DNA of 64,000 nt from Advenella sp. S44 (GTDB taxonomy: Bacteria > Pseudomonadota > Gammaproteobacteria > Burkholderiales > Burkholderiaceae_B): the NCBI RefSeq assembly GCF_002810445.1, contig NZ_NEXS01000011.1, forward strand, positions 248,001-312,000, in the 5' to 3' direction. The translations under genes were made by a program, and so were the position numbers. Every line of letters begins with the position of its first letter. Positions within the stretch are counted from its first letter, which is position 1. Shown one piece after another: positions 21,167 to 43,925 of the stretch. The notes under the pieces were generated by a model, which saw only the letters and a list, made by a program, of their open reading frames with translations, was not told where the DNA came from and searched no databases.

Positions 21167-21186
21167 AAACCCTATTTCGATTCAAT

Positions 21187-21216: not shown

Positions 21217-21249
21217 ATTGTTTGTGATTGGAGTGTGTCATGAATTCGG

Positions 21250-21818
21250 TCACTCCCACGTAACGGCTAAATGGCCCGCATCCAGATAGCCATACTTTTG
21301 CACCATCTGAATGGTTCCCAACCACCCAACTCCTTGAGCAACATAAGCGGCGTCCATGACTGAACATGCCAGTTTGCCCAAATATGCCGCAAATCATAAA
21401 ACTTGAGCGGTTTCCTACCCGCCAGTTTCACTGCGCGACCAATCATTCTCTTACCCACCTGCTTGACCTTGATGCCATTTTCTCGGGTAAAGCACCATTC
21501 CGTTTTTAAAGCCTTCCTCTGTTCGAGTAAAACGAGTACCTCATTGTTAAACCGCATAGGTATCGATCTACCATTTTTTGCTAGATCATTGGTCATCCAC
21601 GCCATGGCCCGATCAGTATCCACCTTATACAAAGTCAGCGATAATATTTCAGTTACACGCGCACCGGTTGCAGACGCAAACCGACAAACCTGATTCATCC
21701 ATTCAAGTTCGATGTGCGACAGCAGCACTTTAGTATCGTATTTAGTGAGCCATCGGATAGTCACTTTTGCCTCTTCATATGTGGACAACATTGGTGATTT
21801 AACAAGCCACGCTCTCAT
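21250..21818 (-). pseudogene. Frameshifted, truncated tyrosine recombinase (phage or island integrase)
   Basis: Only the catalytic half is present: GARVTEILSL carries the first catalytic Arg, FYDLRHIWANWHVQ the second box (with Tyr where the family has His), then LKELGGWEPF. The frame then shifts: the continuation QMVQKYGYLDAGHLAV, with the tyrosine nucleophile, is readable in another minus-strand frame to a stop at 21250. An in-frame stop lies two codons before the first ATG, and no N-terminal arm-binding domain is found upstream. The gene points toward tRNA-Phe, the usual layout of an integrated element, and is almost certainly inactive. Confidence 0.85.
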
Positions 21819-22107
21819 TGGTCACCGGGAGTGTCGGCGCCCAAGCCACCAGGAGCTCCGAGAAGGCTGTGGCGTGAGACTGGCATGTGTCCTAACTTCC
21901 TGGGTAGTCCAGTTGTAACGAATTACAATGCCGTCATGTTAGAATATGTCATATTCGGTCTTTAGGCGCTTCCCTCGTCATGCGGCTGCATTTCTACGAT
22001 TTGAAACTGTAACTGGCTGGCTACCACGTGGGATGTTCGCACAGATCGCTTGGCCGCCAGATGCATCTGGGGAGTCGTAAATACGGCATCTAACTGGTTT
22101 TGCTATT

Positions 22108-22797
22108 ATGGAAAAAACATTAGTTCGGCTGGCAATTTCGCAATCGGAACTCTTTGCCAATTGGCCAACAGCGGCGATCTCGCGGCTCGTTCAGGCATCC
22201 GACTCAATCACGGTCGAAGAAAATACAATTATTCACCTGACTAATGACGTCCCGACCTATGTGTATTTACTCGCTTCCGGCTCGATGCAGCTAATACGGG
22301 AAATACCAGCAGGGCGTAATTTCACTGCTGGGATACACTTGCCGGGAGATTTCCACGGCATCGGGCCCGTCATCACCCAATCGCCTCACATATATACGGT
22401 CAAATGCCGAGAGAAAACGGTTCTGGTTCGTATTCCGGGCGAATTGTTGCGAGACATACTCAGTCATGATGGCAATCTTGCCTTTTCTTTAATGAGTGCC
22501 ATGGTCAATCGCCATCGTGATGCGCTCAACAGGTATGAAGGCGCTGCCATACTATCGACTCGCGAAAGAGTCGCCACACTTCTCAATACTATATATAAAA
22601 AAAGCATTCGTGCTGGCAGCGTTTCCTCGGTGAACCTGTCTCAAGAGGAAATTGCCACGATGCTGGGTACGCGGCGCCAGGTGATTAACAGGGTACTCCG
22701 TGATATGGAATCGGAGGGGGCAATTAGCATCAAATATAAACAAATTTTAATTAGCAATATCGGTAAACTTGAAGAAATGACGGTGCATCTGGGATAG
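22108..22797 (+). CDS. Crp/Fnr family transcription regulator
   Basis: The 229 residues have an N-terminal cyclic-nucleotide-binding-like beta roll (about 20-135; LASGSMQLIREI, LPGDFHGIGPV) and a C-terminal winged helix (about 150-220; LSQEEIATMLGTRRQVINRVLRDMESEG). There is no N-terminal cysteine cluster, so it is not an oxygen-sensing Fnr, and the key cAMP residues are not obvious. It sits at the edge of the catabolic block, convergent with the ferredoxin reductase gene, and may be its regulator; the effector is unknown. Confidence 0.9.
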   Translation: MEKTLVRLAISQSELFANWPTAAISRLVQASDSITVEENTIIHLTNDVPTYVYLLASGSMQLIREIPAGRNFTAGIHLPGDFHGIGPVITQSPHIYTVKCREKTVLVRIPGELLRDILSHDGNLAFSLMSAMVNRHRDALNRYEGAAILSTRERVATLLNTIYKKSIRAGSVSSVNLSQEEIATMLGTRRQVINRVLRDMESEGAISIKYKQILISNIGKLEEMTVHLG

Positions 22798-22808
22798 CCA
22801 GCCCGTTT

Positions 22809-24062
22809 TCAATAGACCGAGCCGGATTCGGCTTGCTGTTGTGCCAAAAATTTGATCCCTGCCTTTAAGCCCATTCCGGAAATGGGCTTAAGTTTTTCCG
22901 GTGTTGGGACTGTATCAGTAGCAAGTAAGTTGCGGATGACGACATGATCGCCCGGGCAGTTAACAGATTCTCCATAGACCAGTTTCCGGTTTCTCCAGCC
23001 AAGCATGCTGAATGCGTTTGTCTCGACCGAACCCGTAAGCAGCCAGTCCTCTACCCGGTCAATTCGACCGGCCATTTGCAAACGAACACCAGCTTGATTG
23101 CTCCAGAACCATGGGGTTTCAATCGGGGGCACGGGTGTATTTGCTATGGCAGCTGCGGCACGCCGGGCATGATCACATGCATTACCAATTGACTCCAGTC
23201 GCACAGAGCGGCCCTCTTCATCGACAAAGCGTGCGCAGTCTCCAATTGCATAAATATTCGGGTCGTTAGTTCGCAAGCAGGTATCGACGACAATTCCATT
23301 GTCGAAGTTCAAGCCGAGATCGGCAGTCCACTCGCCATTAGGATTCGCACCAATACCTTGTACTACAAGATTAGCCTCTACACAGGTACCATCAGAGAGT
23401 ACAATCTCCTTCACCCGTCCGGCCTGGCCCCGTATTTCCAGCACGGAGGCATTAAAGCGAAAGTCTGTGCCGCTCACTTCATGTCGGGAGCGGACATAGG
23501 AAGCGGTTAACTCACTTGCGGTTCTGGGCATCACTCGCGCAGCCGTTTCCAGGATCACGACAGGTTTGCCGAGTTTTGCTGCGGCTGAAGCGAACTCCAG
23601 ACCGATGAACCCGGCACCAATGACAGCTATCCGACTTGCTCGTGCAAGATCATCTCTTAGCGCAAGCGCGTGTTCCAGGGTATGAAATTGATGCAAGCCA
23701 GAGAGTTCAGAACCGGTAATTCGAAGCTGTCTTGGACTTGACCCCAGAGCCAGCACGAGTACTGAGTACTCAATCACGCCGTCGTTCGTTGTCACGGTCT
23801 GCTGCTTCCGGTCGATACTATTGACTTCACAATTGAGCATCAGATCAATTGTGGATTGAGCAAAGGCATTCTGGTTACGTAATGCCAACTCATCCGGCCC
23901 GGCTGTGCCGCTGATCCAGGATTTGGACATGGGTGGGCGTTCGTAAGGTGGGAATGAACTTTTTTCGAGCACGGCAATTGCGCCCGTGTAACCAAGCTGT
24001 CTCAGACTGAAAGCCAGTTCAACGCCGCTGTGACCCCCGCCGACAATGACGACGCGACTCAT
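22809..24062 (-). CDS. FAD-dependent ferredoxin reductase of a P450 system
   Basis: It moves electrons from NAD(P)H to the neighbouring 2Fe-2S ferredoxin. The 417 residues are of the putidaredoxin-reductase/BphA4 type: N-terminal FAD motif VIVGGGHSGVELAFSLR, EKSSFPPYERPPMSKSW, NAD motif IAVIGAGFIGLEFASAAAKLG, and IYAIGDCARF. Its start overlaps the ferredoxin stop by four bases (ATGA), and the P450 gene lies before both, giving a P450-ferredoxin-reductase operon on the minus strand. Confidence 0.93.
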   Translation of the reverse strand: MSRVVIVGGGHSGVELAFSLRQLGYTGAIAVLEKSSFPPYERPPMSKSWISGTAGPDELALRNQNAFAQSTIDLMLNCEVNSIDRKQQTVTTNDGVIEYSVLVLALGSSPRQLRITGSELSGLHQFHTLEHALALRDDLARASRIAVIGAGFIGLEFASAAAKLGKPVVILETAARVMPRTASELTASYVRSRHEVSGTDFRFNASVLEIRGQAGRVKEIVLSDGTCVEANLVVQGIGANPNGEWTADLGLNFDNGIVVDTCLRTNDPNIYAIGDCARFVDEEGRSVRLESIGNACDHARRAAAAIANTPVPPIETPWFWSNQAGVRLQMAGRIDRVEDWLLTGSVETNAFSMLGWRNRKLVYGESVNCPGDHVVIRNLLATDTVPTPEKLKPISGMGLKAGIKFLAQQQAESGSVY

Positions 24063-24382
24063 CGCTGAAACTTCGGAAGATGAACAATCATGTTTTCATG
24101 TTCTGGTTTAATGATGATGGCGCACGACAGGCGACTGTTAAACATACGATCTGCAGCGGTGGCGTCAAGCATTTCGTCTTCGTCATCAGATATTTCCGGC
24201 AAGGTATGCAGAAACGCTTCATCGACATACACATGACAGGTCGCACACATCTGCTCGCCCCCACAATCGCCATAAATACCACCAATCCCACGAAGCTGCG
24301 CGCTTTTCATCAAACTTGTTCCAACTGAACAATCGACAGATGTCGAGGTCCCATCGGAATCCATAAAAATTACATTTGGCAT
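24059..24382 (-). CDS. 2Fe-2S ferredoxin (adrenodoxin/putidaredoxin type)
   Basis: This is a small electron carrier of 107 residues. The four cluster ligands are in GDCGGEQMCATCHVYVD (spacing C-x5-C-x2-C) and in SRLSCAI near residue 86. The acidic stretch PEISDDEDEMLDAT is the docking surface typical of P450 ferredoxins. It lies between the P450 gene and the reductase gene, overlapping the latter by four bases. Confidence 0.95.
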   Translation of the reverse strand: MPNVIFMDSDGTSTSVDCSVGTSLMKSAQLRGIGGIYGDCGGEQMCATCHVYVDEAFLHTLPEISDDEDEMLDATAADRMFNSRLSCAIIIKPEHENMIVHLPKFQR

Positions 24383-24435
24383 AGTATTCCATTCCCAAAA
24401 ATTAATGAATCTGTATCTTTAATGAAAACGCGAAT

Positions 24436-25677
24436 TTAACTGGACAGACGAACTTGCATGTGTTTAAAACCACTCGATTGCAGTGACCTCTCCCGAACTG
24501 GATCTGCAATAACTTGTGCATTTGGAAACCGCGCAAACAGCTCCTGGAAAAGCATCCAGATTTCGCGGCGCGCAATGTGTGCGCCCATGCAAAAGTGTGG
24601 CCCCCCCGCTCCGAAACTCTGGTGGGGGCTCAATTCTCGCGTGATATCAAATTTGAATGGATCGGCAAAGAGTCGGGGATCCCGGTTGGCGGAAACAAAC
24701 CACATGGCAATTTTTTGCCCTTTCTTCATCTGTACGCCTTTGAATTCGATATCTCGCGTAAGAATGCGACCCATATGCTTGATGGGCGTTGCCCAGCGAA
24801 TGATTTCCTCGGCCATTGTTCTTTCGTGCGCTAACGGATCGTTGATGAACAGGCGGCGCTGCTCTGGAAATTGCGTGAATGCAAGCATTCCATGCGAAAT
24901 CGCTGCGCGCGTTGTTCCACTCCCTGCGGCAATCATCAAACCAAAGTATCCACCGAGCTCTACTTTGTCCAGCGGCTTACCATCAACTCTGACCTGAGCA
25001 AGCTCTGAAATGAGATCGTCCTTGGGGTCAAGTAGCCGTTTAGCAGCGATATTGATGCCGTACTCCCTCAGCTCGAGAACGGCCTGCTGCGGGGCATCCG
25101 GTTTATCGGCATATTCGGGTTCATGTTCTGATCGGCCAATTTTAGATAGTTCCAGCAAGCGAGGGCGATCCGCGGGGTCAACGCCAACAAGGTCACTTAC
25201 AATTTCGAATGGCAAAATGGCGGCCAGATCATCAACGAAATCTATTTCCTGACCATCAGAAAAATTTGACACGAGTTCTCGCGCTTTCTCCCGTACGTAT
25301 CCTTCCAGCTGGCCCACTTGGCGCGGCATGAATGCCTTGTTCACACGTTTTCTGTTAACGGTATGATCCGGCGGGTCAAGTTCGATCAGTGCGCCTGTCC
25401 CAGGCCGAATTTTTGTATTGGCATCATGGTAGACACGAACGCCATACTTACTCGTGAAGGCTTCCCAGTCTTTGTTCACTTCAGCAATATCGTCATAGTC
25501 CACCAGCGACCAGAACCCTTTGCCGGATTCCGGATGTTCGTGCCATGAAATCGGCTTTTCCCTGCGTAGAAGAGCAAGTGCGCCATGAAAATCATTTCTA
25601 AGCCAAAAGTCCGGATCAGCTAGATTGATTTCGTCAAGTTGCAGGCTGGTTGTTGGTTGCAGCACTTGTAATAGCAT
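24436..25677 (-). CDS. Cytochrome P450 monooxygenase
   Basis: It is a soluble class I P450 of about 413 residues. Visible are the I-helix oxygen-binding segment MIAAGSGTTRAAI, the ExxR motif EEIIRW and the heme loop FGAGGPHFCMGAHIARRE with the cysteine ligand. It resembles bacterial terpenoid, steroid side-chain or fatty-acid hydroxylases more than aromatic ones, but the substrate cannot be assigned. Two starts are possible; ATG 25677 is better spaced from AAAAGGA than ATG 25683. The ferredoxin and reductase follow, so all three components are encoded in one operon. Confidence 0.95.
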   Translation of the reverse strand: MLLQVLQPTTSLQLDEINLADPDFWLRNDFHGALALLRREKPISWHEHPESGKGFWSLVDYDDIAEVNKDWEAFTSKYGVRVYHDANTKIRPGTGALIELDPPDHTVNRKRVNKAFMPRQVGQLEGYVREKARELVSNFSDGQEIDFVDDLAAILPFEIVSDLVGVDPADRPRLLELSKIGRSEHEPEYADKPDAPQQAVLELREYGINIAAKRLLDPKDDLISELAQVRVDGKPLDKVELGGYFGLMIAAGSGTTRAAISHGMLAFTQFPEQRRLFINDPLAHERTMAEEIIRWATPIKHMGRILTRDIEFKGVQMKKGQKIAMWFVSANRDPRLFADPFKFDITRELSPHQSFGAGGPHFCMGAHIARREIWMLFQELFARFPNAQVIADPVRERSLQSSGFKHMQVRLSS

Positions 25678-25741
25678 TTCCATTTCCTTTTAATACCTTT
25701 GTCATTTCTTATTAAATATTTAATGTGGAGAATTATTTTGA

Positions 25742-27220
25742 TCAAACGCGAGCGGTCCGTTGCAAAACGGTTTTGGTGATGGTGTATGGATCCAGGCTCT
25801 GTGCACCCCCTTCCCGGCCGATACCGCTTTCCTTAACGCCACCAAATGGTGTATCCGGGCCGCTCATGCCGAAATGGTTGATCGATAAAACACCACACTC
25901 AAGTTCCCGCGAAAAGCGTTCGGCTTCATCAAGTGAGTTGGTGAATGCATACCCGGACAGCCCGACTGAAATCTGGTTGGCAAGAGCAATGCCTTCATCC
26001 AGGTCATCCATTGGTACGCACAAAGCAAGCGGCCCAAAGGGTTCGCTAGTCATTGCTTTGGCGTCTGCGGGCACGTCAGCAAGCACAGTGGGCTCATAAA
26101 AAAAACCGTGCGTACCAATGCGACGGCCACCAGCAGTGAGTTTTGCTCCACGTGCTACTGCATCTTTCACCAGCTCGTCTATTGCGTCCAGTCTTTTTTG
26201 ATTGATCAAAGGGCCCATCTGGACTCCGGATTCGAAACCGTCACCAACCTGTAACGTTTTGGCATACTGAGAAAATGAGTCCACGAATTGATCATAGGAT
26301 TTACGATGAATGATAAATCGTGTTGGTGAGGCACAGACTTGCCCCCCTAAGCGCATTTTTGCGCTGGCCGCCAATCGCCCCACCGACGCAGCGTCAACGT
26401 CTGAACCTATCAAAACAGGTGCATGGCCACCGAGTTCCATTAACACCGGTTTCATGACTGCAGCAGCCAGTTGCGTTAAATGCTTTCCAACCGCAACGGA
26501 ACCTGTAAATGTCACCATTCTGATAATTGGAGAGGCGATCAGGATGGAGGAGATCACAGACGGGTTACCGAACAGCAGGTTGACAACGCCAGCAGGCAAG
26601 CCAGCATCCAGAAAACACTGGACAAAGGCACAAGCGGTACCGGGTGTTTCTTCGGCGGCTTTGATAACGACAGAACAGCCGGCAGCGAGTGCGCCGCTCA
26701 TTTTTCTTGCAGGAGAACCGATAGGAACATTCCAGGGCGTGAATGCGGCGACCGGACCAATCGGCTGTTTAAGTACCATCTGCTGCATTTGTCGGCCGGC
26801 GGGAACAATACTGCCATAAAGGCGCTGTGCCTGCGCAGCATCCCATTCGAGAAAGCCAATGGCCCTCGCAATTTCGTTTCTGGCATCGACTATCGGTTTG
26901 CCCTGTTCAAGCGTAAGAATTTGCGCAATCGATTCGGACCGTTCTCGTACGATCTGCGCAGCACGTAATATGACTGACGCCCGCTTTTGGGGCGCTGTGT
27001 CTTTCCAAACCTGGAAGCCACGTTCAGCAGAAACGAGTGCTTCAGATATATCCTCGGTAGACGCTTGTGGTACTTGGCCCAAAATGGCTTCGGAACTGGG
27101 GTTGACCACTTCAGCAAAAGCCGGGCGGTCATAGACCCATTGGCCGTCTATATGCAGCCCTATAGCCGGATATTGAATGTCAGGAATCACTGGTATGGCT
27201 TGTGGATTTATATTTTTCAT
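25742..27220 (-). CDS. NAD(P)-dependent aldehyde dehydrogenase
   Basis: It oxidises an aldehyde to the acid. The 492 residues have the cofactor segment FTPWNVPIGSPARK, the turn FTGSVAVGKHL, the general-base region MELGGHAPVLIG and the nucleophile cysteine in GGQVCASPTRF. The sequence is closest in style to succinate-semialdehyde or benzaldehyde-type dehydrogenases. It lies 64 bp upstream of the P450 gene on the same strand and so probably heads this operon: hydroxylation by the P450 and further oxidation of the product is a reasonable inference. Confidence 0.93.
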   Translation of the reverse strand: MKNINPQAIPVIPDIQYPAIGLHIDGQWVYDRPAFAEVVNPSSEAILGQVPQASTEDISEALVSAERGFQVWKDTAPQKRASVILRAAQIVRERSESIAQILTLEQGKPIVDARNEIARAIGFLEWDAAQAQRLYGSIVPAGRQMQQMVLKQPIGPVAAFTPWNVPIGSPARKMSGALAAGCSVVIKAAEETPGTACAFVQCFLDAGLPAGVVNLLFGNPSVISSILIASPIIRMVTFTGSVAVGKHLTQLAAAVMKPVLMELGGHAPVLIGSDVDAASVGRLAASAKMRLGGQVCASPTRFIIHRKSYDQFVDSFSQYAKTLQVGDGFESGVQMGPLINQKRLDAIDELVKDAVARGAKLTAGGRRIGTHGFFYEPTVLADVPADAKAMTSEPFGPLALCVPMDDLDEGIALANQISVGLSGYAFTNSLDEAERFSRELECGVLSINHFGMSGPDTPFGGVKESGIGREGGAQSLDPYTITKTVLQRTARV

Positions 27221-27542
27221 CTGTAATTTCTTATCACTTATATTGGTGCAATGTTCAAATTAAGCTTGGTCTATCTGTGATAGGGCAGTATCGCCAGCGC
27301 TGATAGCCAATACAAGGTTTATGTTTGTATAAATGTCCGCATTGATACTGTTTGACTTTGCTATCGCCCATCGAATAACAGATATTTCGATCGAAATTTG
27401 TTCGGAAGAATTTATTTGAGTCAATTTGCGGGGATTGTCTTTTTTGTTGCGTTTGGCGTCTGCGCTGACGCAATAGTGCGTGATAGACTTCCTGCTCCTG
27501 CCTGGGACGTTGGAGTTCAGGAGGGTGTAGAGAGGCTCAATA
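27221..27542. promoter_or_regulatory. Divergent control region with two short palindromes
   Basis: This 322-bp region separates the minus-strand ALDH/P450 operon from the plus-strand SDR gene. It contains a perfect 14-bp palindrome ATTTCGATCGAAAT (27384-27397) and the short dyad CTATC-TGT-GATAG (27271-27283). The latter shares CTGTGATAG with the hairpin at 31030-31070. Either could bind the local Crp/Fnr or LysR regulator. No gene is seen here. Confidence 0.4.
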
Positions 27543-28295
27543 ATGAATAATGTAGTGAAAGGTGAAGCCGTTGTAGTGACTGGCGCTGCGCAAGGAATTG
27601 GCTATGCGATTGCACAAAGCTTTGCAGCCATGGGCAGACGAGTGGTTATCGCCGATCTGCGCGGATCGGAAGAGGCCGCTTGCAAACTGGGGCACGATGC
27701 CCTGGGATTCGATGTAGATGTAAGCAACGCCGACCAGGTAGACGCCATGATGGCTTTTGCGGCCGAAAAAACGGGTGGCGTATCTGTGCTTGTTAACAAT
27801 GCCGGGATTTATACAACACTGACCAAAACGCCATTCGACGAGATTACGCCGGAAGAATGGAAGAAAGTCTTCAGTGTAAATGTGGAGGGAGTATGGTACT
27901 GCTGCCGCGCCGCCGCGCGTTACATGAAACCAGCGGGCGAAGGAAATATCGTCAATATTGCATCTGCGGTTGTTTCTAAAGGTACGCCCGGCTTTCTGCA
28001 TTATGTTGCCAGTAAAGCTGCCGTGGCGGCAATGACTCGAACGTTGGCGCGTGAACTTGGCCAGTACGGTGTACGGGTAAACACGGTTTCGCCAGGATTT
28101 ACACAGAGCGATGGAATTTTGGCCGGCGGCGCATCACGAGATCAACTGCGGGAAGACATTCGGCGTCAGCGTGCGGTACAGCGGGATATTTCTCCTGACG
28201 ATATTGCTGGCGCGGTAACCTTCCTTGCCAGCTCCGACGCCGGCATGCTCGCCGGTCAGAACCTCATTGTCGACGGTGGAATCACCATGTCGTGA
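27543..28295 (+). CDS. SDR family NAD(P)-dependent oxidoreductase
   Basis: This classical short-chain dehydrogenase has 250 residues: cofactor motif TGAAQGIG, NNAGIY, the active-site YVASK and the C-terminal GQNLIVDGGITMS. Such enzymes interconvert alcohols or cyclic diols and ketones. It starts at ATG 27543 with AGAGG eight bases upstream and is the first gene of the plus-strand half of the catabolic block, followed by a Bug receptor after 90 bp. The substrate is unknown. Confidence 0.92.
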   Translation: MNNVVKGEAVVVTGAAQGIGYAIAQSFAAMGRRVVIADLRGSEEAACKLGHDALGFDVDVSNADQVDAMMAFAAEKTGGVSVLVNNAGIYTTLTKTPFDEITPEEWKKVFSVNVEGVWYCCRAAARYMKPAGEGNIVNIASAVVSKGTPGFLHYVASKAAVAAMTRTLARELGQYGVRVNTVSPGFTQSDGILAGGASRDQLREDIRRQRAVQRDISPDDIAGAVTFLASSDAGMLAGQNLIVDGGITMS

Positions 28296-28385
28296 ATATA
28301 GCCAAAATTGTATTTGCTATAAGCACTGCTGTGTATTTTATTCAAAACTCGAATTTTGTATAGCCAATATATATTGGGAGACATT

Positions 28386-29420
28386 ATGTTTTATAAAAAA
28401 AAGACTGATCCTAACAAGACCGCTGTTAAGTATATACCCTGTGCGACAGAGAGAACTCGTCGACATCTATTGATTGGCGGCATAACTTTGCTCGGTTTGG
28501 CGCCGCTCTCTGTATTTGCCGAAGCCTATCCAAATCGCCCTATCTCACTAATCGCGGGTGCATCTTCTGGTGGATCAGTCGATATTGGCGCCAGAATTGT
28601 CGCCAAGTCCCTCTCAGATGAGCTGGGGGTTCCGGTCATTGTTGAGAATAAGCCCGGTGCAACGGGCGTTATCGGCACGAGGTATGTCGCGAAAGCACCG
28701 CCTGACGGTTACACCTTAATGTTTGGAGGACCAAGCGCTTCTATTGTTGGGCCTCAAACTCAAAAAACCGCGGACTCATTCGACGCCGTTAAAGAAATAG
28801 TGGGTATCAATATGGTAACGAAAGGTCCAATGGCAGTCGCAATAAACCCGTCCCTGAAAGTTGAAAACTTCAAAGCCCTGGTCGAGCTGTCAAAAACACG
28901 TCAGGTCATGCTTGGTGTCCCGGGCATCGGCGGTGCGCCGGATTTGATGGTAAAAGAATTGAATAAATTTACGGGCGCGAAGTTTGAAACGGTGCCTTAC
29001 AAGGGCCTGGGTGCCGCAATTAACGATGCGATAGGAGGCCAGATTGACGGCGTCGCGTCGGATTTGGGGCCATTCGTTCCGTTTTTAAAAGGCGGACGCC
29101 TGAACGTTCTGGCGGTGACATCGAAGGAACGATTCGCAGAATTTCCAGACATTCCAGCTGTCGCTGAAAGCTATTCAGGATTTGCCGTCGATTCCTGGCT
29201 CGGCATATTCGCTCCGGCCAAAACGCCGCCAGCTGTGATTGACAAGGTCAATGCGGCGCTGGTAAACGTCTCTAATAATTCGGAAGTAAAAGCCATTTTT
29301 CTGCAGTCAGCCAGTCTGACCGCGCCGATGAAGACACCGGCTGATTTTCAGAAATTCGTCGCCAATGAGTACAACCGCTGGGGAGATGTCCTCAAAGAAT
29401 TCAATTTACTCAAAAATTGA
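28386..29420 (+). CDS. Bug/TctC-family periplasmic substrate-binding protein
   Basis: It captures a small carboxylate in the periplasm. The 344-residue precursor has a twin-arginine-like signal (TRRHLLIGGITLLGL) and the Bug signature YPNRPISLIAGASSGGSVDIGAR followed by VENKPGATGVIGTRYVAKAPPDGYTL. I used ATG 28386 (GGGAGA upstream) rather than the longer open frame. No TctA/TctB membrane genes are nearby, which is usual for this family in Bordetella-like genomes. It probably recognises the substrate or an intermediate of this cluster. Confidence 0.92.
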   Translation: MFYKKKTDPNKTAVKYIPCATERTRRHLLIGGITLLGLAPLSVFAEAYPNRPISLIAGASSGGSVDIGARIVAKSLSDELGVPVIVENKPGATGVIGTRYVAKAPPDGYTLMFGGPSASIVGPQTQKTADSFDAVKEIVGINMVTKGPMAVAINPSLKVENFKALVELSKTRQVMLGVPGIGGAPDLMVKELNKFTGAKFETVPYKGLGAAINDAIGGQIDGVASDLGPFVPFLKGGRLNVLAVTSKERFAEFPDIPAVAESYSGFAVDSWLGIFAPAKTPPAVIDKVNAALVNVSNNSEVKAIFLQSASLTAPMKTPADFQKFVANEYNRWGDVLKEFNLLKN

Positions 29421-29475
29421 TTGACAACTTATACCCCATCATCCAGTGAAATATCAGTTGTGGAGCTGCATCTAA

Positions 29476-29901
29476 ATGTTCGACACTCATACAGAAATCA
29501 ACCTGGGCGATGCCCAGTTAGACCGGGATCATTCCGAACTCATGCGCCTGAGCCAGGCGCTCCTGGATGTACCGAACGACAGGAATGTGCTTGCGCTGGA
29601 AGCGCTTTATACAGCGGCTCGTGAGCACTTCTCTCTGGAAGACGCCGACCTTCGACGACTGGGAGGCAACAACAGTGTTTGTCATCTAGATGAGCATGCA
29701 TTAGTGTTGAAATCGCTTGAAGAAGTGCTCGAGATATTGCGCGATCCAGCGACCACATCGGAAAAGGCCAACCAAATGCTGTCTAGTCTGGCGATGGAAC
29801 TGCTGAGGTGGTTGCCAGAGCATATTCGCGAAATGGATTCCGGCCTGGCATCTGTACGAAGTCAGGCTCGATTCGGCGGATCTCCGATAGTGTTTGCCTG
29901 A
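29476..29901 (+). CDS. Bacteriohemerythrin
   Basis: This is a four-helix diiron oxygen-binding protein of 141 residues. The ligands follow the family pattern: DRDHSELM, REHFSLEDADL, CHLDEHALVLK and LPEHIREMDSG. It sits between a Bug receptor and the oxygenase reductase, all on the plus strand. An oxygen-delivery or oxygen-sensing role for the two oxygenase systems around it is an attractive inference but not shown by the sequence. Confidence 0.92.
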   Translation: MFDTHTEINLGDAQLDRDHSELMRLSQALLDVPNDRNVLALEALYTAAREHFSLEDADLRRLGGNNSVCHLDEHALVLKSLEEVLEILRDPATTSEKANQMLSSLAMELLRWLPEHIREMDSGLASVRSQARFGGSPIVFA

Positions 29902-30010
29902 TATAGAGCGAGGATTCCAGACAGAAAATTAACAGGAAAAATGTCACCTTAAAGACGATTGCAATCATTCCCGAATGGCGCAATCGCAATCGACCAGGCA
30001 TTATCATAAT

Positions 30011-30988
30011 ATGAATACACTTAAAGCAAGATTACATTCTATTGAGTATGTTGCCAGCGGCATCCACTCCTTCGAATTCAGACCGCTAGAGGGCTCTGCG
30101 TGGCCACGCTTTTCGGCCGGCGCACATATAGACATCCACTTCGCGGATGAACTATCTCGGAGCTACTCGCTAATCAATCCGGAAGGAGAATGCCATCGCT
30201 ATGTTGTCGCCATAAATCGGGACGAACATGGAAAAGGCGGTTCGCGTTATCTGCATGATACGCTTCGTGTTGGGACATGCTTGTCGATTTCGGAGCCACG
30301 CAATACCTTCCCGTTGAATGAGTCAGCGAATCACTCAGTATTTATTGCAGGCGGGATCGGCATCACGCCACTTTGGAGCATGATTCAGCGACTGACTCAG
30401 CTGGGCTCGCCATGGACCCTGCATTACGCAGCGCGCGAACGCGTTAACGCTGCATTTGTTGAACAGCTCGAAATGCTACAGCAGCCGGATCAGTCAGAAT
30501 GCCATTTGTATTTTGATCAAGAACCGTCGGGCAGGTATATGGATCTGCGAAGCGTTGTAGGCAGCTGTCCGACGGGAGCGCATATCTACTGTTGTGGCCC
30601 TGTCAGGATGCTCGAGGCATTTGAGCAAGTAGTGACTGAACTTCACATCGCGCAAGACCGAGTGCATCGGGAATACTTCGCCGTGCCGGCCACTCCATCG
30701 AAAATGGCCGGACATACAGACCAAGCCTTCAACGTCTTACTCGCTAAGAGCGGGCGCTCGGTCGCGGTTGATAAGGATACGACCATTCTTGAGGCGCTAC
30801 TGGATGAAGGTGTGGATGTTCCCTATTCGTGCATGAGCGGAATTTGTGGTGCCTGCATGACCAATGTTCTTAAGGGCGAGCCCGATCACAGAGACCTCGT
30901 ATTGACCGAGGAGGAAAAAGACTCGGGGAAAGTCATGTTGATTTGCTGTTCCCGTTCGAAATCGTCGGAAATTGAGCTGGACTTATAA
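30011..30988 (+). CDS. Rieske oxygenase reductase (phthalate-dioxygenase-reductase type)
   Basis: It moves electrons from NADH through a flavin and a plant-type 2Fe-2S centre to the oxygenase. The 325 residues have a flavin domain (RSYSLINP), a nucleotide domain (FIAGGIGITPLWSM, CCGPVRMLEAFEQ) and a C-terminal ferredoxin domain (PYSCMSGICGACMTNV and LICCSR). I used ATG 30011, which gives the normal N-terminus MNTLKARLHSIEY, over an ATG 36 bp upstream. Its oxygenase partner is at 33131. A strong terminator follows. Confidence 0.93.
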   Translation: MNTLKARLHSIEYVASGIHSFEFRPLEGSAWPRFSAGAHIDIHFADELSRSYSLINPEGECHRYVVAINRDEHGKGGSRYLHDTLRVGTCLSISEPRNTFPLNESANHSVFIAGGIGITPLWSMIQRLTQLGSPWTLHYAARERVNAAFVEQLEMLQQPDQSECHLYFDQEPSGRYMDLRSVVGSCPTGAHIYCCGPVRMLEAFEQVVTELHIAQDRVHREYFAVPATPSKMAGHTDQAFNVLLAKSGRSVAVDKDTTILEALLDEGVDVPYSCMSGICGACMTNVLKGEPDHRDLVLTEEEKDSGKVMLICCSRSKSSEIELDL

Positions 30989-31029
30989 CACGGCCCTTTC
31001 AAGATTCATTTATACCGATCCGTATAGTT

Positions 31030-31070
31030 AACTGCGCACTATCACAACTGTGATAGTGCGCAGTTTTTTT
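31030..31070 (+). terminator. Intrinsic terminator with perfect 17-bp stem
   Basis: AACTGCGCACTATCACA is followed after two bases by its exact complement and then TTTTTTT. The stem contains the inner dyad TATCACA/TGTGATA, so it may double as a protein-binding site. It separates the reductase transcript from the FAH-Bug-oxygenase-porin genes. Confidence 0.9.
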
Positions 31071-31203
31071 CAATATACATCATGGAATCCCCCGTTTTCA
31101 GTCAATAGAAACAAACACAACAGTTAACGCGTTATTTGCTTGGCAAAAGACTGCATTTAGCACCCATAATTGGTAATCAAAATTTATCACAAAAGGAATA
31201 AAT

Positions 31204-32067
31204 GTGAGTCAACAAAATTTCAATCTTGGACGCTATCAAGTCAACGAAAAGATAGTCATTGGGCGACCCGATAACGACTTTATCGAGATAGTTCATGAAC
31301 ACGACGATCTGCCTTACGTACTGAGTTTGTTCGAATCGGATATTGCTGCTGTTGGGCGAGTTACCGCGTCGGACACTAAGTTACTTGTACCGTTGGATCC
31401 ACATGCTCGAATCTTTTCCATCGCTGTTAACTATCGTGCCCATGGAGCCGAGGCAAAGGCCGCCCCTCCACAACGTCCACTGATGTTCTATAAAGCGCCG
31501 TCTAATTTTGTGGGGCATGGTGAGCTACTTAATCCCAATAGTCAATTGACTTCCAAGTTCGACTATGAAGGCGAGATTGCAGTGGTTATCGGTCGCGAGT
31601 GTAAAAACGCGACGTTGCAAAATGCGCTCGATTTTGTCGCTGGCGTTTGCGCATTCAATGACGGAAGTGCACGTGATCTTGGCAAAGTCCCCCTTGGTGA
31701 TGCGAACCCGCCTACGGCCTTCTGGCCGGACTGGACAGCGAACAAGGCGCTTGACGCAGCCTCTGCAATAGGGCCGACCATTACCTGTGGAACGAAGGTG
31801 TTATCAGAACTGCGCGATAGAAACCTTAGAATCACAACTCGTTTGAACGACGAAACTGTCCAGTCGGAACTGATGAGCGAAATGATATTTTCGACCGAAC
31901 AGATCATTGCCACGCTCTCTTCATACATGAAGCTTTTGCCGGGAGACGTGATTGCAACCGGAACGCCAGCGGGCGTAGGTGTCGCGCGCAACCGGTTCTT
32001 AAAAAGTGGCGATAGACTGGAATTCGAAGTCAGTGGTCTGGACGCCCTGAAAGTTACCGTCTCTTGA
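31204..32067 (+). CDS. FAH-family hydrolase
   Basis: This 287-residue protein of the fumarylacetoacetate hydrolase fold cleaves C-C bonds in acyl-pyruvate-type ring-opening products. Visible are NYRAHGAEAKAAPPQRPLMF, the metal-ligand region SKFDYEGEIAVVIGRE, FNDGSARDLG and GDVIATGTPAGVG. The GTG start at 31204 has AAAAGGA upstream; the overlapping ATG runs into a stop at once. Its place before the Bug receptor and the Rieske oxygenase fits a late step in breakdown of an aromatic ring. Confidence 0.9.
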   Translation: MSQQNFNLGRYQVNEKIVIGRPDNDFIEIVHEHDDLPYVLSLFESDIAAVGRVTASDTKLLVPLDPHARIFSIAVNYRAHGAEAKAAPPQRPLMFYKAPSNFVGHGELLNPNSQLTSKFDYEGEIAVVIGRECKNATLQNALDFVAGVCAFNDGSARDLGKVPLGDANPPTAFWPDWTANKALDAASAIGPTITCGTKVLSELRDRNLRITTRLNDETVQSELMSEMIFSTEQIIATLSSYMKLLPGDVIATGTPAGVGVARNRFLKSGDRLEFEVSGLDALKVTVS

Positions 32068-32085
32068 CCGGAGATTCAAATCATA

Positions 32086-33078
32086 ATGAAACACGTCAGC
32101 AGAAGAGCGCTTATTAAGGCTATCGGTGCACTCCCCTTCGCTATCTCGGGCACAGCAATGTCGGCAGCCCACGCGAAAAATGAATATCCGATAAATCCGA
32201 TTACCCTCGTTTTACCGGTCGGACCAGGCAATACAGCCGATATCATCGGACGCCTGCTCGCCCAACATTTGGGTGCATCCATTGGGACCCAAATCGTGGT
32301 GGAAAATCGTCCGGGAGCAGGCGGAATCAGCGCCGTCAAACACGTCGGGTCAGCGAAACCCGATGGGTATTCCCTCATGTACATGGGAGCCGGCTCAGCC
32401 ATTAGCCAGACATTGTTCAAACCTCAGCCGTTCAATCTTATTGAAAGTTTTACGCCGATTACCACCATCACGAGCAACGACGTCATCCTTGTCACGGGAA
32501 AAAACTCATCGCTGTCCAATATCGGCGATTTTCTGGACAAGAGCCGCAAGACCCCGGGCGGCTTGATGGTAGGGATCAGTCTGCTGGGGACAATTCAGCA
32601 TTTGACTGCGGAAACCTTCAAAAGTATGGCCGGTATTGAAATGACAATTGTGCCATATAAAACGGCCTCGGCTGTTTCGGCGGCACTGGCTTCGGGAGAT
32701 ATTGAGCTGGCTTTTGAATTTGTTCCACCTATGCTGGGGCAGATACAAAATGGTCTGATCAAGGCGCTCGCGATTTCCAATGCGGATCGCTCAAAGATTT
32801 TACCGACAGTGCCAACTTTGGCCGAGCAGGGGTTTACGGATTTCAATGTCGCATCGTGGGGAATGATCGTTGCGCCCAACAATACCCCGGATACCATCGT
32901 TCAATATTTAAACAAACATATCCATTCTGCAATTGGTGAACCCGATGTGATGAACAGGCTTACCGAATTGGGCGTTCGAGTTCAGTTAGGTACGGCAGAT
33001 GAGGCGAACGCGCTTCTAAGCAGAGAAATTGTCAGATGGAAAACGGTCATCGACCAAACAAAAGTCTCATTAACTTAA
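32086..33078 (+). CDS. Bug/TctC-family periplasmic substrate-binding protein
   Basis: The 330-residue precursor has a twin-arginine-like signal (SRRALIKAIGALPFAISG) and the Bug signature NPITLVLPVGPGNTADIIGR, VENRPGAGGISAVKHVGSAKPDGYSL. It is the second Bug receptor of the catabolic block and only distantly like the one at 28386, so the two may bind different compounds. It lies 18 bp behind the FAH gene and 52 bp before the oxygenase gene. Confidence 0.92.
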   Translation: MKHVSRRALIKAIGALPFAISGTAMSAAHAKNEYPINPITLVLPVGPGNTADIIGRLLAQHLGASIGTQIVVENRPGAGGISAVKHVGSAKPDGYSLMYMGAGSAISQTLFKPQPFNLIESFTPITTITSNDVILVTGKNSSLSNIGDFLDKSRKTPGGLMVGISLLGTIQHLTAETFKSMAGIEMTIVPYKTASAVSAALASGDIELAFEFVPPMLGQIQNGLIKALAISNADRSKILPTVPTLAEQGFTDFNVASWGMIVAPNNTPDTIVQYLNKHIHSAIGEPDVMNRLTELGVRVQLGTADEANALLSREIVRWKTVIDQTKVSLT

Positions 33079-33130
33079 GGCTCATTGGCTAACACTCAAT
33101 GAATCTTTAGCAACTGGAAGGAACACTCAA

Positions 33131-34366
33131 ATGACGCTCGACAATTCAAGTTCTCAGAAACTAGACAAGCAGCAAACGCAGACATCAGAACAGCAACGCC
33201 TTCAAAAACTCTCCGACAGAATGAAGCCGTTGGCAGAAACCACTGCCGGCACCCCGATGGGTGAATTGCTCAGAAAATTCTGGCATCCCATCGCGCTATC
33301 GAGAAGTATTGACCCGGGAAAAGCCCGTGCTGTTCGGCTTTTAGGTGAAGATTTGGCACTGTATCGCGGGGAAGGCGGAAAAGCCCATTTGCTGGCGAAC
33401 CGTTGTGCTCATCGCCTGACCAAGTTGCACACGGGTTGGGTCGAAGGGGACGAATTACGCTGTATGTACCATGGCTGGAAGTACAACGCTCACGGGCAAT
33501 GTGTTGACAGACCAGCAGAGCGTGCGGGTAGTCATGGAAGCATCCGGGTCAACTCGTACCCTGTTCACGAATACTGTGGCGTCGTTTTTGCATACCTGGG
33601 AGAGGGGGAAGCGCCTGAATTCGACTTGTATCGCAAGCCAAAATTTGAAGAAGATGGCGTTTTACTCTTTCAACGTCAGGAAATATGGCCATGTAACTGG
33701 CTGCAGCATGCCGAAAACTCACTGGACGCAGTGCATGTCAGCTTCGCGCACCAAATGGGCAAAGTGGGCGTATTCGGAGATGCCATCACAGATCAGGTGC
33801 CAACGCTCAGTTACGAGGAAACATCGGCGGGAATCAAGCAGACCGCTGTTCGCGTAATCGACGGAAAAACTCAGGTACGGGTAAGCGACTGGACGTTCCC
33901 CTATGGTAATCACGTTTCCATACCTGCCGTCCATGAAGGCGGCGCATGGATTGAAACGGCCAACTGGATGGTTCCGATTGACGATACGCATACCCTTCGT
34001 GTCTCGTTGCGAGCTGTGCCTTCGACGACACCGGACGCAGACGCAAAAATTAGCGAATATTTTGACGGGTGTGAAGACTATTGTTCTACCGACCACCACG
34101 ACGATTTATTCGCAGGAAACTACCCAGAAGATCCATTAGTACGCCTAACCAGCGCGCAAGACTATGTTGTCCTGGTCGGCCAGGGTGAAATTGCCGATCG
34201 TGTCCACGAATGTCTGGGCGTATCCGATCAAGGCATTGCATTTTTACGACGAATTCTTTTCCGGGAACTCGAGGCGATTCGTAATGGCAAACCGACCAAG
34301 GAGTGGCGTCGAATTGAAAACGGATCGACTTTGTTTCAGTACAAGGAAGAAACAGCAGCAAATTAA
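33131..34366 (+). CDS. Rieske-type aromatic ring-hydroxylating oxygenase, alpha subunit
   Basis: The terminal oxygenase has 411 residues. The Rieske centre is held by Cys92, His94, Cys111 and His114 (NRCAHRLTKLHTG, RCMYHGWKY). The mononuclear iron site is in NSLDAVHVSFAHQMG. Architecture and the class IA reductase nearby are those of the phthalate/vanillate (VanA-like) group, which adds oxygen to or O-demethylates aromatic acids. There is no beta subunit gene, again as in that group. The ribosome site AAGGAA is well placed. The substrate is not known. Confidence 0.93.
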   Translation: MTLDNSSSQKLDKQQTQTSEQQRLQKLSDRMKPLAETTAGTPMGELLRKFWHPIALSRSIDPGKARAVRLLGEDLALYRGEGGKAHLLANRCAHRLTKLHTGWVEGDELRCMYHGWKYNAHGQCVDRPAERAGSHGSIRVNSYPVHEYCGVVFAYLGEGEAPEFDLYRKPKFEEDGVLLFQRQEIWPCNWLQHAENSLDAVHVSFAHQMGKVGVFGDAITDQVPTLSYEETSAGIKQTAVRVIDGKTQVRVSDWTFPYGNHVSIPAVHEGGAWIETANWMVPIDDTHTLRVSLRAVPSTTPDADAKISEYFDGCEDYCSTDHHDDLFAGNYPEDPLVRLTSAQDYVVLVGQGEIADRVHECLGVSDQGIAFLRRILFRELEAIRNGKPTKEWRRIENGSTLFQYKEETAAN

Positions 34367-34523
34367 TCGGCAAAAAATGAACTTTCTGCACCGTGCGAAA
34401 ACGCGCGGTGTGAGAGTTCATTCTTTTTGCAGGCAGTGGGGCTGTGTCTGTTTCTGCGCCTTAAGACAAGTCCCAAAAAATCACAATCAATTCAATAAAA
34501 AAGTACACGGGAGACATGTTCCA

Positions 34524-35729
34524 ATGAAAAGAAATTTGCTTATTGCAGTGCTGACTACCGGCATTGCCGGAGTCGCCCATTCAGCGACGTCAGTTACGTT
34601 ATACGGATTGGTCGATGCGGGGATAGGCTACCAGCAAACGCGAGTCAGCCAGGGTGACCAATGGAACAAAACTCGGGAAATCGGGGTGGTCAATGGCGTT
34701 AATAAGGGTAACCGCTGGGGGTTAAAAGGCGCTGAGGATATTGGTAACGGCACGAGTGCGATTTTCCAGCTGGAAAACGGCTTTGACCTGGGAAATGGTA
34801 ATGCCACGATCGGGGGTCGTTTGTTCGGACGACAAGCGTTCGTTGGTTTACAAAGTAAAAGCTGGGGCGCATTGACATTCGGACGTCAATATAACCTTGC
34901 TGCCAAATTTATTGCATCAATCGACCCATTTGCAGTCGGCTTCAAGCAAGCCGGGGTTCTGAATGGCGCTTTTGGCAGCTCCACCAACGCGCGTATGGAC
35001 AATTCAATTAAATATGTCTCGCCTGAACTGTCCGGGTTCACTTTTGGCATGGTCTATGCCGGTAAGAATACAAAGACGACAACCGGCGATGGAATGGATG
35101 ACGTGCATAGCGGGGATACGTCAAATTGGATCTCGTTGGGCGCAAACTATGCGAAGGGTCCGCTAGTGATCGGCGCATCTTACGATCGTTTTCGTACCAA
35201 TTTCCGTGAGGCGGGCGAAGAAACCAAAGGAACCGCGCACATGTGGAACCTGTTTGGATCATATGATTTTGATCTGGTGAAGCTGCATTTGGGATATGGC
35301 CAGGTTCACGGCGCGGCATCAAACGATATAGTTGTAGAGAAAGGGCCTGGCAGCACCGGGCTAAATGGTGCTTTCAATAAATTTACTGTGGTTAAAGATC
35401 CTGTCAGCTCTATCCATGGCTTGGACTACGCTCAGACTGATGGCTACCGGCAGCAAGCCTGGCTCGTGGGCCTGACTACGCCAGTGGGCGATCAAGGAAA
35501 GATTCTTTTTTCCTATCAGGGTAGTGCCACAAAAAATACAGAGGATGCGTTTGATGGCGCGAAAGGACGGCTCGACATTTACAGTTTGGCCTATTTACAC
35601 AATATGTCCAAACGGACCAGCTTGTACGCCGTCGCATCTTATGGTTCAGGAAGGTTGAAATTTGATAATCAGGAGAACGTCAGATTGAAATCAACGCTAG
35701 TCGGGATCGGGATACATCACCTCTTCTAG
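34524..35729 (+). CDS. Outer-membrane porin (Burkholderiales general porin family)
   Basis: This trimeric 16-strand porin has 401 residues: signal peptide MKRNLLIAVLTTGIAGVAHSA and the family start SVTLYGLVDAGIGYQQ, with NRWGLKGAEDIGNGTSAIFQLE and the last strand STLVGIGIHHLF. The open frame extends upstream to 34164 inside the oxygenase gene; ATG 34524 gives the real signal peptide. A porin at the end of a catabolic operon usually assists entry of the growth substrate. Confidence 0.93.
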   Translation: MKRNLLIAVLTTGIAGVAHSATSVTLYGLVDAGIGYQQTRVSQGDQWNKTREIGVVNGVNKGNRWGLKGAEDIGNGTSAIFQLENGFDLGNGNATIGGRLFGRQAFVGLQSKSWGALTFGRQYNLAAKFIASIDPFAVGFKQAGVLNGAFGSSTNARMDNSIKYVSPELSGFTFGMVYAGKNTKTTTGDGMDDVHSGDTSNWISLGANYAKGPLVIGASYDRFRTNFREAGEETKGTAHMWNLFGSYDFDLVKLHLGYGQVHGAASNDIVVEKGPGSTGLNGAFNKFTVVKDPVSSIHGLDYAQTDGYRQQAWLVGLTTPVGDQGKILFSYQGSATKNTEDAFDGAKGRLDIYSLAYLHNMSKRTSLYAVASYGSGRLKFDNQENVRLKSTLVGIGIHHLF

Positions 35730-35762
35730 TTCGCGGTCAATAATCACCAGCCATATTGAAAC

Positions 35763-35792
35763 GTTCCCGGGCCAGCCTTATGACCCGGGAAC
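35763..35792. repeat. Inverted repeat between convergent genes
   Basis: GTTCCCGGG and CCCGGGAAC form a 9-bp stem with a 12-base loop between the porin and the convergent ThDP enzyme gene. There is no T-run on either side, so it is at best a rho-independent terminator of unusual form or a mRNA-stabilising hairpin. Confidence 0.5.
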
Positions 35793-35854
35793 ATGCACAA
35801 ATCGTTGTGGAATATTAGTACGTTAATGAACCGCTTTCAGCGCACCCGGATGAC

Positions 35855-37396
35855 TCATATCATGAGTTCTATCAAAAACGGGCCGGTATTTTTAAAACTG
35901 TTTTGCATGAGATCGGCACATTGCTCCAGTGTGGTCGCTTTCGCTGCTTCGACGCCCATCCCGTTGGCAAGCTTAACCCAGCTCAGATTCGGATTGCCGA
36001 TATCCAGCATACTCATCGCGGTGGCGCCGGGCGCCGCGCCAACATTCTCATATTCACCAATCAGAATATTGTATTTACTGTTATTAAGAATGATCGTTGT
36101 AACTGGCAGTTTTTCTCTCGCTTGTGTCCAAAGGGATTGTAATGAATACATCGCTGAACCATCAGCCTGAATATTGATGACACGCCGCTGCTTGCCGGCT
36201 CCTATTGCCGCGCCTGTTGCGACCGGCATCCCATCGCCAATTGCTCCGCCAGCCAGATGCAACCAGTCGTGCGGTGGCGCCGCGTGAGTAAATCGATAAA
36301 AGTCTCTGCCATAGGAAATGCTTTCGTCAGAGATGATAGCGTGCTCCGGCATGAGCGCAGCCACCGTTTGCGCCAGTTTTTCGGCTGTAGGGCTTCCCTT
36401 GGACGGAAGCGGTCGTGGGCCGGGGTCCGGAATATCGATAGCTGGCGCATCAAGTATTTTTGCCAGCTCCTGCAGAGCCAAAATCGGGTCTTGATCCGCT
36501 CGCGTCAGGACATGCACCTGCGCACGGGCAGAGTACTGTCTTGAGGGCATTCCAGGATACCCAAAAAAACCTACCGGCGCTTTGGCATTGACCAGAATGA
36601 TATGCTCGTATCGCTCAAGCGTTTTGATTGCAGATGTATTGGAATAAGGAACACGTTCCAATTGCATGCGACCACGTCCACGCGCAATAGAGGGTATGAC
36701 ATAGTCTGCAAGTACGGCGGCACCAGTGGCATTGGCAATCTGCCAGGCGAGCAACTGGGCCTGTGTTGACAATCCGGTTCCCGCCAGTAAGATCAATACA
36801 TTGTTATTGTTGCGAAGTATATTTGCGGCAACTTCAATGACATTAAAATCAGTGGCTGGCGGTGGCGCAGGCGCAATGGGTTCCGATACAACCGCTGCTT
36901 CCTCCCATGAAATGTCAGCCGGTACTATCAACGTTGCAATTTGTCCGGGATACGTTTTTGCAGCACGAACGGCCATGGAGGCATCCCGACCCAACTCGTC
37001 GGACCGGGTACTTGTTTGCACCCACTGGGAGACCGTTCTGGCCATACTATCGGTATCAGCTGTTAGCGGTGCATCAAATGGGCGGTGAAATGTCGCCTGA
37101 TCCCCGACAATATTAATTATTCCGCTGCGCGCGCGACGCGCATTGTGAAGGTTCGCCATACCGTTTGCCAAACCCGGCCCGCAGTGCAACAGTGTGCACG
37201 CGGGTTTACGAGCAATCCGATAATAGCCATCTGCCATTCCTGTGACAATATTTTCCTGTAAGCCAAGTATACATTTCATTCCTGGTACTTGATCCAGCGC
37301 AGCAACAAAGTGCATTTCACTTGTCCCAGGATTTGCAAAGCAAGTATCTACACCTGAACTCAGTAATGTCTTAACCAAACTATGTGCACCATTCAT
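35855..37396 (-). CDS. Thiamine-diphosphate-dependent enzyme (acetolactate synthase/benzoylformate decarboxylase-like)
   Basis: The 513 residues show the three-domain ThDP layout: N-terminal pyrimidine domain (FANPGTSEMHFVAALD, LGLQENIVTGMADGYYR with the catalytic Glu), a shortened middle domain and the C-terminal diphosphate domain (ADGSAMYSLQSLWTQA, LNNSKYNIL). Such proteins in catabolic clusters decarboxylate 2-oxoacids or ligate aldehydes. It is transcribed away from the LysR gene at 37565. The substrate is unknown; a benzoylformate-like acid would fit the aldehyde dehydrogenase in this block. Confidence 0.88.
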   Translation of the reverse strand: MNGAHSLVKTLLSSGVDTCFANPGTSEMHFVAALDQVPGMKCILGLQENIVTGMADGYYRIARKPACTLLHCGPGLANGMANLHNARRARSGIINIVGDQATFHRPFDAPLTADTDSMARTVSQWVQTSTRSDELGRDASMAVRAAKTYPGQIATLIVPADISWEEAAVVSEPIAPAPPPATDFNVIEVAANILRNNNNVLILLAGTGLSTQAQLLAWQIANATGAAVLADYVIPSIARGRGRMQLERVPYSNTSAIKTLERYEHIILVNAKAPVGFFGYPGMPSRQYSARAQVHVLTRADQDPILALQELAKILDAPAIDIPDPGPRPLPSKGSPTAEKLAQTVAALMPEHAIISDESISYGRDFYRFTHAAPPHDWLHLAGGAIGDGMPVATGAAIGAGKQRRVINIQADGSAMYSLQSLWTQAREKLPVTTIILNNSKYNILIGEYENVGAAPGATAMSMLDIGNPNLSWVKLANGMGVEAAKATTLEQCADLMQNSFKNTGPFLIELMI

Positions 37397-43922: not shown

Positions 43923-43925
43923 TGG

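Follow-up and report, generated by a model that had tools for sequence, protein, structure and literature searches.

Genes of the P450 and Rieske oxygenase systems

The DNA analysed in this study is a 64,000-nt window of contig NZ_NEXS01000011.1 from Advenella sp. S44 (GCF_002810445.1), in which genes for a cytochrome P450 system and a Rieske non-heme iron oxygenase system lie side by side; all coordinates are positions within this window. Genes were called from open reading frames (ORFs) and Pfam/NCBIfam profile scans, and tRNA was located using ARAGORN. On the minus strand, genes for an aldehyde dehydrogenase (ALDH, 25742–27220), a cytochrome P450 (24436–25683), a [2Fe-2S] ferredoxin (24059–24382; Pfam Fer2 and the Cys pattern) and an FAD-dependent ferredoxin reductase (22809–24062; Pfam Pyr_redox_2 and Reductase_C) form the P450 operon that had been proposed in an earlier sequence-only reading of this DNA. 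A divergent gap (27221–27542) separates the ALDH gene from a plus-strand series of genes encoding a short-chain dehydrogenase (SDR, 27543–28295), a first TctC-type periplasmic binding protein (28356–29420; PF03401; a start near 28386 is likelier, as judged by eye), a hemerythrin-domain protein (29476–29901; PF01814), an FMN/NAD/[2Fe-2S] reductase of the phthalate dioxygenase reductase type (29975–30988), an FAH-family hydrolase (31204–32067; PF01557), a second TctC-type protein (32086–33078) and a phthalate-dioxygenase-like Rieske oxygenase (33131–34366). The two-component Rieske system proposed for this strand was recovered as well. The hemerythrin-domain gene adjoins the reductase gene and has a counterpart in the Polaromonas (L006) and Ramlibacter (L008) loci described below. 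The limits previously set for the block, 22809–34366, agree with the genes as drawn, but the block reaches further and includes a Crp/Fnr-type regulator (22108–22797, plus strand) and a genomic island that extends to about 38575.

Both oxygenase systems look complete, as had been claimed, because active-site signatures were found in the oxygenases and signature residues in both electron-transfer chains. The P450 carries ExxR at 293 and the heme-Cys motif FGAGGPHFCMG at 357, and the Cys cluster of the ferredoxin is intact; together with the separate genes for a [2Fe-2S] ferredoxin and an FAD reductase, these features identify a class I bacterial P450 system. The closest solved P450 sequences were CYP125MRCA (331 bits) and CYP124 (283 bits), the latter annotated as a methyl-branched lipid omega-hydroxylase, and methyl oxidation is predicted with moderate confidence for the window P450. 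Enzymes of the CYP124/CYP125 type hydroxylate terminal methyl groups of lipids or sterols. The window P450 differs from the CYP124/CYP125 type in its proteobacterial host and in its I-helix, where residues 253–258 read AGSGTT instead of AGNETT, so that the acid-alcohol pair is absent. The conserved I-helix acid of P450s helps protonate the iron-bound oxygen. AGSGTT was invariant in all eight Burkholderiales P450s (the window and seven relatives) and also occurred in a Rhizobium homologue, whereas AGNETT was found in a Rhodococcus ruber homologue and AGNE(T/S) in seven mycobacterial stretches, those examined out of the 10 that these loci contain. The usual acid is therefore replaced by glycine in the Burkholderiales P450 clade. 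Structure models of the P450 and the Rieske oxygenase, built from eight-row alignments, had mean pLDDT values of 42.7 and 30.8 and were too poor to be used.

A second small ferredoxin gene, of the 4Fe-4S type, lies between the P450 and [2Fe-2S] ferredoxin genes in L003, L004 (11255–11497 of that locus), L006, L008 and L009 and on two plasmids that carry P450 homologues (Rhizobium and R. ruber). A 19-residue match is all that is kept in L007 (Collimonas), and neither the window nor L005 (Glaciimonas) yielded a match.

The Rieske oxygenase has the CxH...CxxH cluster ligands at 92–114 and the mononuclear iron motif DxxHxxxxH at 199, and its reductase shows SRSYSL, GGIGITP and CxxxxCxxC, in keeping with FMN, NAD and C-terminal [2Fe-2S] binding. 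This is the composition of a two-component system of the phthalate dioxygenase type. Alignments to 7fjl/7v25 and 7fhr covered the greater part of the oxygenase, and the reductase matched 2pia (202 bits); these similarities are moderate only and do not imply a phthalate 4,5-dioxygenase function for the window enzyme. In the FAH-family protein, H80, E122/E124 and D153 were invariant in 8/8 loci, as expected of this family; we take the His, ExE and Asp to be the metal and catalytic site residues. The ALDH was nearest, among solved structures, to alpha-ketoglutaric and succinic semialdehyde dehydrogenases, whose aldehydes already bear a carboxylate.

Linkage and control of the gene set in related genomes

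The GTDB genome collection was scanned with the P450 by a method that detects close relatives only. Fourteen loci were recovered, seven with 80–85% identity and seven mycobacterial with 32–34%. The close relatives came from three Collimonas genomes, Glaciimonas soli, Polaromonas OV174, Ramlibacter WS9 and one betaproteobacterial metagenome-assembled genome. In all seven, genes for the SDR, Crp-type regulator, FAH-family enzyme, Rieske oxygenase, its reductase, ALDH, P450, ferredoxin and ferredoxin reductase lay within about 20 kb, the SDR gene of L003 and the Crp gene of L005 being cut by the end of the fetched stretch; the Rieske gene was present in every one of these genomes.

The nine genes are kept together in four different orders. 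In Collimonas and the metagenome-assembled genome the order is Crp-FAH-Rieske-reductase-ALDH-P450-ferredoxin-ferredoxin reductase on one strand, with the SDR gene opposite, and the run from FAH to ferredoxin reductase is on one strand throughout L003, L004, L007 and L009. The FAH-Rieske-reductase block is inverted in Glaciimonas, with the SDR gene beside it. Ramlibacter and Polaromonas share a single run of SDR-TctC-ALDH-P450-ferredoxin-ferredoxin reductase, with the Rieske and FAH genes opposite; in Polaromonas these two are separated by a TctC gene. The fourth order is that of the window. Through all of these, ALDH-P450-ferredoxin-ferredoxin reductase and FAH-(TctC)-Rieske persist as fixed blocks. 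An MFS permease gene lies behind the operon in the three Collimonas loci (Pfam on one of them).

The best conserved proteins, by identity to the window, were the SDR (81–83%), P450 (80–85%), ALDH (76–80%) and ferredoxin (74–77%), and the Rieske and FAH-family proteins varied more among relatives than the SDR, ALDH and P450. By identity, the window Rieske and FAH-family proteins are nearer to those of Polaromonas and Ramlibacter, and the window Crp-type regulator is nearer to that of Collimonas. A mosaic origin was considered and left unproven: the trees divided three ways, and it was in different lineages that their long branches fell.

The two oxygenases are rare in larger genome samples. Scoring in these samples was limited to four first-look candidates in each genome, and weak copies can therefore be missed. 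The P450 was found in one of 399 genomes of the order (E ≤ 1e-120) and one of 399 of the Polaromonas family (E ≤ 1e-100). The Rieske oxygenase, at E ≤ 1e-100, was found in 2/399 genomes of the order (this genome and G380, at 48%) and in 3/399 of the Polaromonas family (Polaromonas at 79%, and G783, twice, and G1014 at 46–49%). Within the genus Collimonas, the same three of 15 genomes carry both the P450 and the Rieske oxygenase (E ≤ 1e-60 for the latter), and neither was found in the remaining 12 at the thresholds applied. The association of the two is specific to this set of Burkholderiales.

The divergent gap had been described as a shared region with palindromes. The gap exists and is rich in short inverted repeats (10 vs a mean of 3.2 in 1000 dinucleotide shuffles, P = 0.008), although its longest arm is 7 (P = 0.157), and the strong palindrome lies elsewhere. 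These short repeats are at most candidate operators. The strong palindrome (31030–31065) has perfect 17-bp arms followed by a T run, and no arm of that length was obtained in 1000 shuffles of 30989–31203. It was rejected as an operator and is an intrinsic terminator on the plus strand, because the T run stands behind it and it is flanked by the co-directional reductase and FAH genes. It divides the Rieske half into two probable units, SDR-TctC-hemerythrin-reductase and FAH-TctC-Rieske. In total, promoter-like and terminator-like sites were no more numerous than in shuffled sequences. Adjacent divergent ALDH and SDR genes were found only in the window among the eight loci; with this, the terminator lying elsewhere and no shared operator proven, the view of the gap as a common control point found no support.

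The Crp-type regulator probably controls the gene set, a prediction of moderate confidence. Its recognition helix reads TRRQVxNR without exception in the window and the six relatives (of seven) that were aligned, with overall identity as low as 52%, and one operator is therefore expected. A Gibbs search over the upstream regions of the aldh, fah and sdr genes found no motif common to these classes. TTG-N10-CAA sites were present upstream of the FAH gene in 6/8 loci and, in the window, at 21913 and 27243; their intergenic density was near the overall rate (11 found vs 7.5 expected), and a narrower form gave 8 vs 2.8 expected, five of the eight being orthologous. With the Gibbs search empty and the density of sites near the overall rate, a shared Crp-type operator was regarded as unproven.

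Evidence for and against a common pathway

Because the linkage persists through gene rearrangement in 7/7 close relatives, the comparison strongly suggests that the P450 and Rieske halves serve one common pathway. We consider it likely that the block is a catabolic locus gained by horizontal transfer, and that its class I P450 and its phthalate-dioxygenase-type Rieske system work in a single peripheral pathway. The earlier reading suggested that the two systems may act in succession on one compound; the shared pathway is well supported, and serial action is a step that we infer. In the proposed scheme, a methyl-bearing carboxylic acid would be taken up through a porin and the TctC proteins (or the MFS permease in Collimonas), and its methyl group would be hydroxylated by the P450, fed by the FAD reductase and the [2Fe-2S] ferredoxin. 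The SDR and ALDH would convert the alcohol to the aldehyde and then the acid, returning NADH; the Rieske oxygenase and its reductase would oxygenate the resulting (di)acid, and the FAH-family enzyme would cleave or decarboxylate an oxo-acid formed later, the whole set being controlled by the Crp-type regulator. The presence of the SDR, P450 and ALDH among the best conserved proteins fits a methyl-alcohol-aldehyde-acid series, and the TctC proteins and the Collimonas permease fit organic-anion uptake. The sequences point with moderate confidence to methyl oxidation by the P450, SDR and ALDH and to this order of steps, and weakly suggest the class of substrate.

A more specific version is offered tentatively, and we would sooner doubt than assert it: an undescribed mobile pathway of a few soil Burkholderiales, in which a P450 lacking the I-helix acid would work in series with a Rieske oxygenase on one carboxylic acid, both being controlled by a single Crp-type regulator. 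Such a P450 would use another proton route, perhaps through the substrate's own carboxylate.

Several observations weigh against a common pathway. The close relatives (7/7) and the Collimonas genomes (3/15) share ancestry and are not independent events, and the two halves are separate transcription units in the window. P450s with 62% and 59% identity, each accompanied by a ferredoxin and a reductase, occur on plasmids of Rhizobium leguminosarum and R. ruber, and neither a Rieske nor an FAH gene was found near them within 41-kb stretches. The R. ruber plasmid P450 has an adjacent distant ALDH (31%); over whole plasmids, a 35% Rieske protein lies far off in R. ruber and none is present in Rhizobium. 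The Rieske relatives at 46–49% in G380, G783 and G1014 come without such a P450 in the matching samples. The relative in G1014 (46%) has in its vicinity a pair of gentisate-dioxygenase-like proteins (214 and 242 bits, under the cut-off of 442), FAH-family genes and a 3-hydroxybenzoate 6-monooxygenase (685 bits, over the cut-off), and those in G783 and G380 stand beside acyl-CoA dehydrogenase-like and SDR-like genes, as judged by eye. Since the P450 trio and the Rieske subfamily are thus found in other settings, each half is a module able to live apart. The conserved nine-gene set also includes no ring-cleavage enzyme. Gentisate 1,2-dioxygenase (TIGR02272) was not found in the genome of the window (E ≤ 1e-10) or in Collimonas OK242, other ring-cleavage families not having been searched; matches to this profile were present in 6/8 carrier genomes and over the cut-off in 3/8. 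A gentisate route, which the G1014 relative had suggested, was set aside, as the window's genome has no gentisate dioxygenase match.

The same evidence bears on the explanation that two independent catabolic modules, with no shared substrate, are parked side by side on a gene-accumulating island. The separate occurrence of each half speaks for it, as do the terminator and divergent orientation that separate the units and the differing DNA that G536 and G564 carry at this tRNA-Phe site. We nevertheless regard it as unlikely, given that 7/7 close relatives keep both halves together with the SDR, the FAH-family enzyme and the same regulator across gene orders and genera, and that the same 3/15 Collimonas genomes carry both. 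A pathway that is shared but begins with the Rieske oxygenase, for example by demethylation or ring oxygenation, and continues with the P450, SDR and ALDH overlaps with the favoured reading; it is conceivable, although we lean away from it. The sequences do not fix the order of steps, and TsaM acts ahead of an SDR and an ALDH in TsaMBCD (PMC10579966). The dit pathway has a P450 ahead of the Rieske enzyme (PMC13063091), and the stronger conservation of the SDR, ALDH and P450, with more variation in the Rieske and FAH-family proteins, is as might be if later steps drift.

The enzyme types on the island, namely P450, thiamine-diphosphate enzyme, Rieske oxygenase and FAH-family protein, also recall lumichrome (riboflavin) catabolism. 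The lum cluster of Nocardioides simplex (PMC12746152) has a P450 acting on an aryl methyl group, a thiamine-diphosphate decarboxylase, a later Rieske enzyme and an FAH gene, and thus shares enzyme types with the window but not the gene set or redox architecture: its P450 is fused, and its Rieske enzyme has two subunits with a separate ferredoxin and reductase. A Pfam scan confined to the 16 main genes of the island gave no sign of pyrimidine-ring hydrolases, xanthine oxidase or extradiol dioxygenase, and the island thiamine-diphosphate enzyme is not conserved in relatives. A lumichrome pathway was therefore rejected as highly improbable, since the redox architecture differs and the defining hydrolases and xanthine oxidase are not among the scanned genes.

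Known systems provide precedents for the favoured reading of a P450 and a Rieske oxygenase in one pathway. DitA is a Rieske enzyme. In the dit cluster of Pseudomonas abietaniphila, hydroxylation by the P450 DitQ, a predicted alcohol oxidation and ring-hydroxylating dioxygenation by DitA form a series on dehydroabietic acid (PMC13063091). By this description, dit and the window share a P450-to-dioxygenase series on one carboxylic acid encoded by clustered genes, but dit is a 19-gene set with the ring-cleavage dioxygenase DitC. In TsaMBCD, which acts on 4-methylbenzenesulfonate and 4-methylbenzoate, a Rieske oxygenase, reductase, SDR and ALDH cooperate and the dehydrogenases return NADH (PMC10579966); the likeness in these four components is again one of description, and TsaMBCD is without a P450, whereas the window has two oxygenase systems. 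ETBE/MdpJ is a further possible precedent. No description of the present gene set was recognised among the open-access PMC papers listed by the searches, which does not prove that it is unpublished. As the series principle is known from dit, the novelty lies in the gene set and not in the principle.

Through these comparisons, what had been conjecture about neighbouring genes becomes a pathway that can be tested: eight genomes hold the nine-gene set, rearranged but intact, and some of them belong to named strains of the genera Collimonas, Glaciimonas, Polaromonas and Ramlibacter. If the reading is right, the set would make up a new catabolic module, in which a single pathway is supplied by two electron-transfer chains. 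It would then also contain a natural clade of P450s from which the acid for proton delivery has been lost, and for this clade the acid-bearing R. ruber relative offers a ready comparison.

The genomic island and neighbouring genes

The oxygenase block is cargo of a horizontally acquired island of 17.4 kb (21167–38575), which was delimited by GC content and same-genus comparison. The island begins at a tRNA-Phe gene (21091–21166, plus strand; boundary from comparison with L041) and carries next to it a tyrosine integrase of 183 aa, probably truncated (21267–21818, minus strand; PF00589). GC content was 0.47–0.51 in every 1.5-kb step from 21 to 39 kb and 0.55–0.58 in adjoining steps, with single steps further away dropping to 0.50. 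Seven same-genus stretches were compared, four of which were uninformative for want of a sir2 match in the fetched DNA (one ends before the tRNA). In G457, only 614 bp lie between tRNA-Phe and sir2, the gene that starts at 38576 in the window, and 21167–38575 is therefore an insertion. The tRNA flank, the short integrase and the near-empty site in G457 together characterise a tRNA-associated island. No exact same-strand repeat of the tRNA of at least 14 bases was found elsewhere in the window that could mark the far border, imperfect repeats not being covered. Among 250 genomes sampled from the family, this one alone had the P450, and the nine other same-genus genomes had none.

The same site holds other DNA in G536 and G564 (4.0 and 8.7 kb). 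With 614 bp, 4.0 kb, 8.7 kb and 17.4 kb in four genomes, the tRNA-Phe gene, which lies downstream of hemA, marks a hotspot of insertion in this genus.

Beyond the Rieske gene, the island encodes a porin (34524–35729, plus strand; Pfam Porin_4, start judged by eye), a thiamine-diphosphate enzyme resembling benzoylformate decarboxylase and acetolactate synthase (35855–37396, minus strand; NF005760, 699 bits, cut-off 363) and, at its end, a LysR-type regulator (37565–38455, plus strand; Pfam). The thiamine-diphosphate enzyme is intact; its only similarity among the relatives is a 36-residue stretch beside the Rieske gene in L006 (Polaromonas), so that the enzyme may formerly have belonged to the Polaromonas locus. 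The ORF at L006:15304–15843 had been labelled as this enzyme by BLAST, and the label was rejected, since Pfam identifies a LysR regulator and the resemblance is confined to the 36-residue stretch on its N-terminal side.

Just beyond the island, at 40516–43954, genes for PdxA-like, SBD_N/NBD_C and KdgT permease proteins follow one another next to a GntR regulator gene and probably form a sugar-acid catabolic operon. On the minus strand at 50390–55516, a gene for a TrkA-N/RyR-domain protein (580 aa) lies directly downstream of an ORF of 1127 aa.

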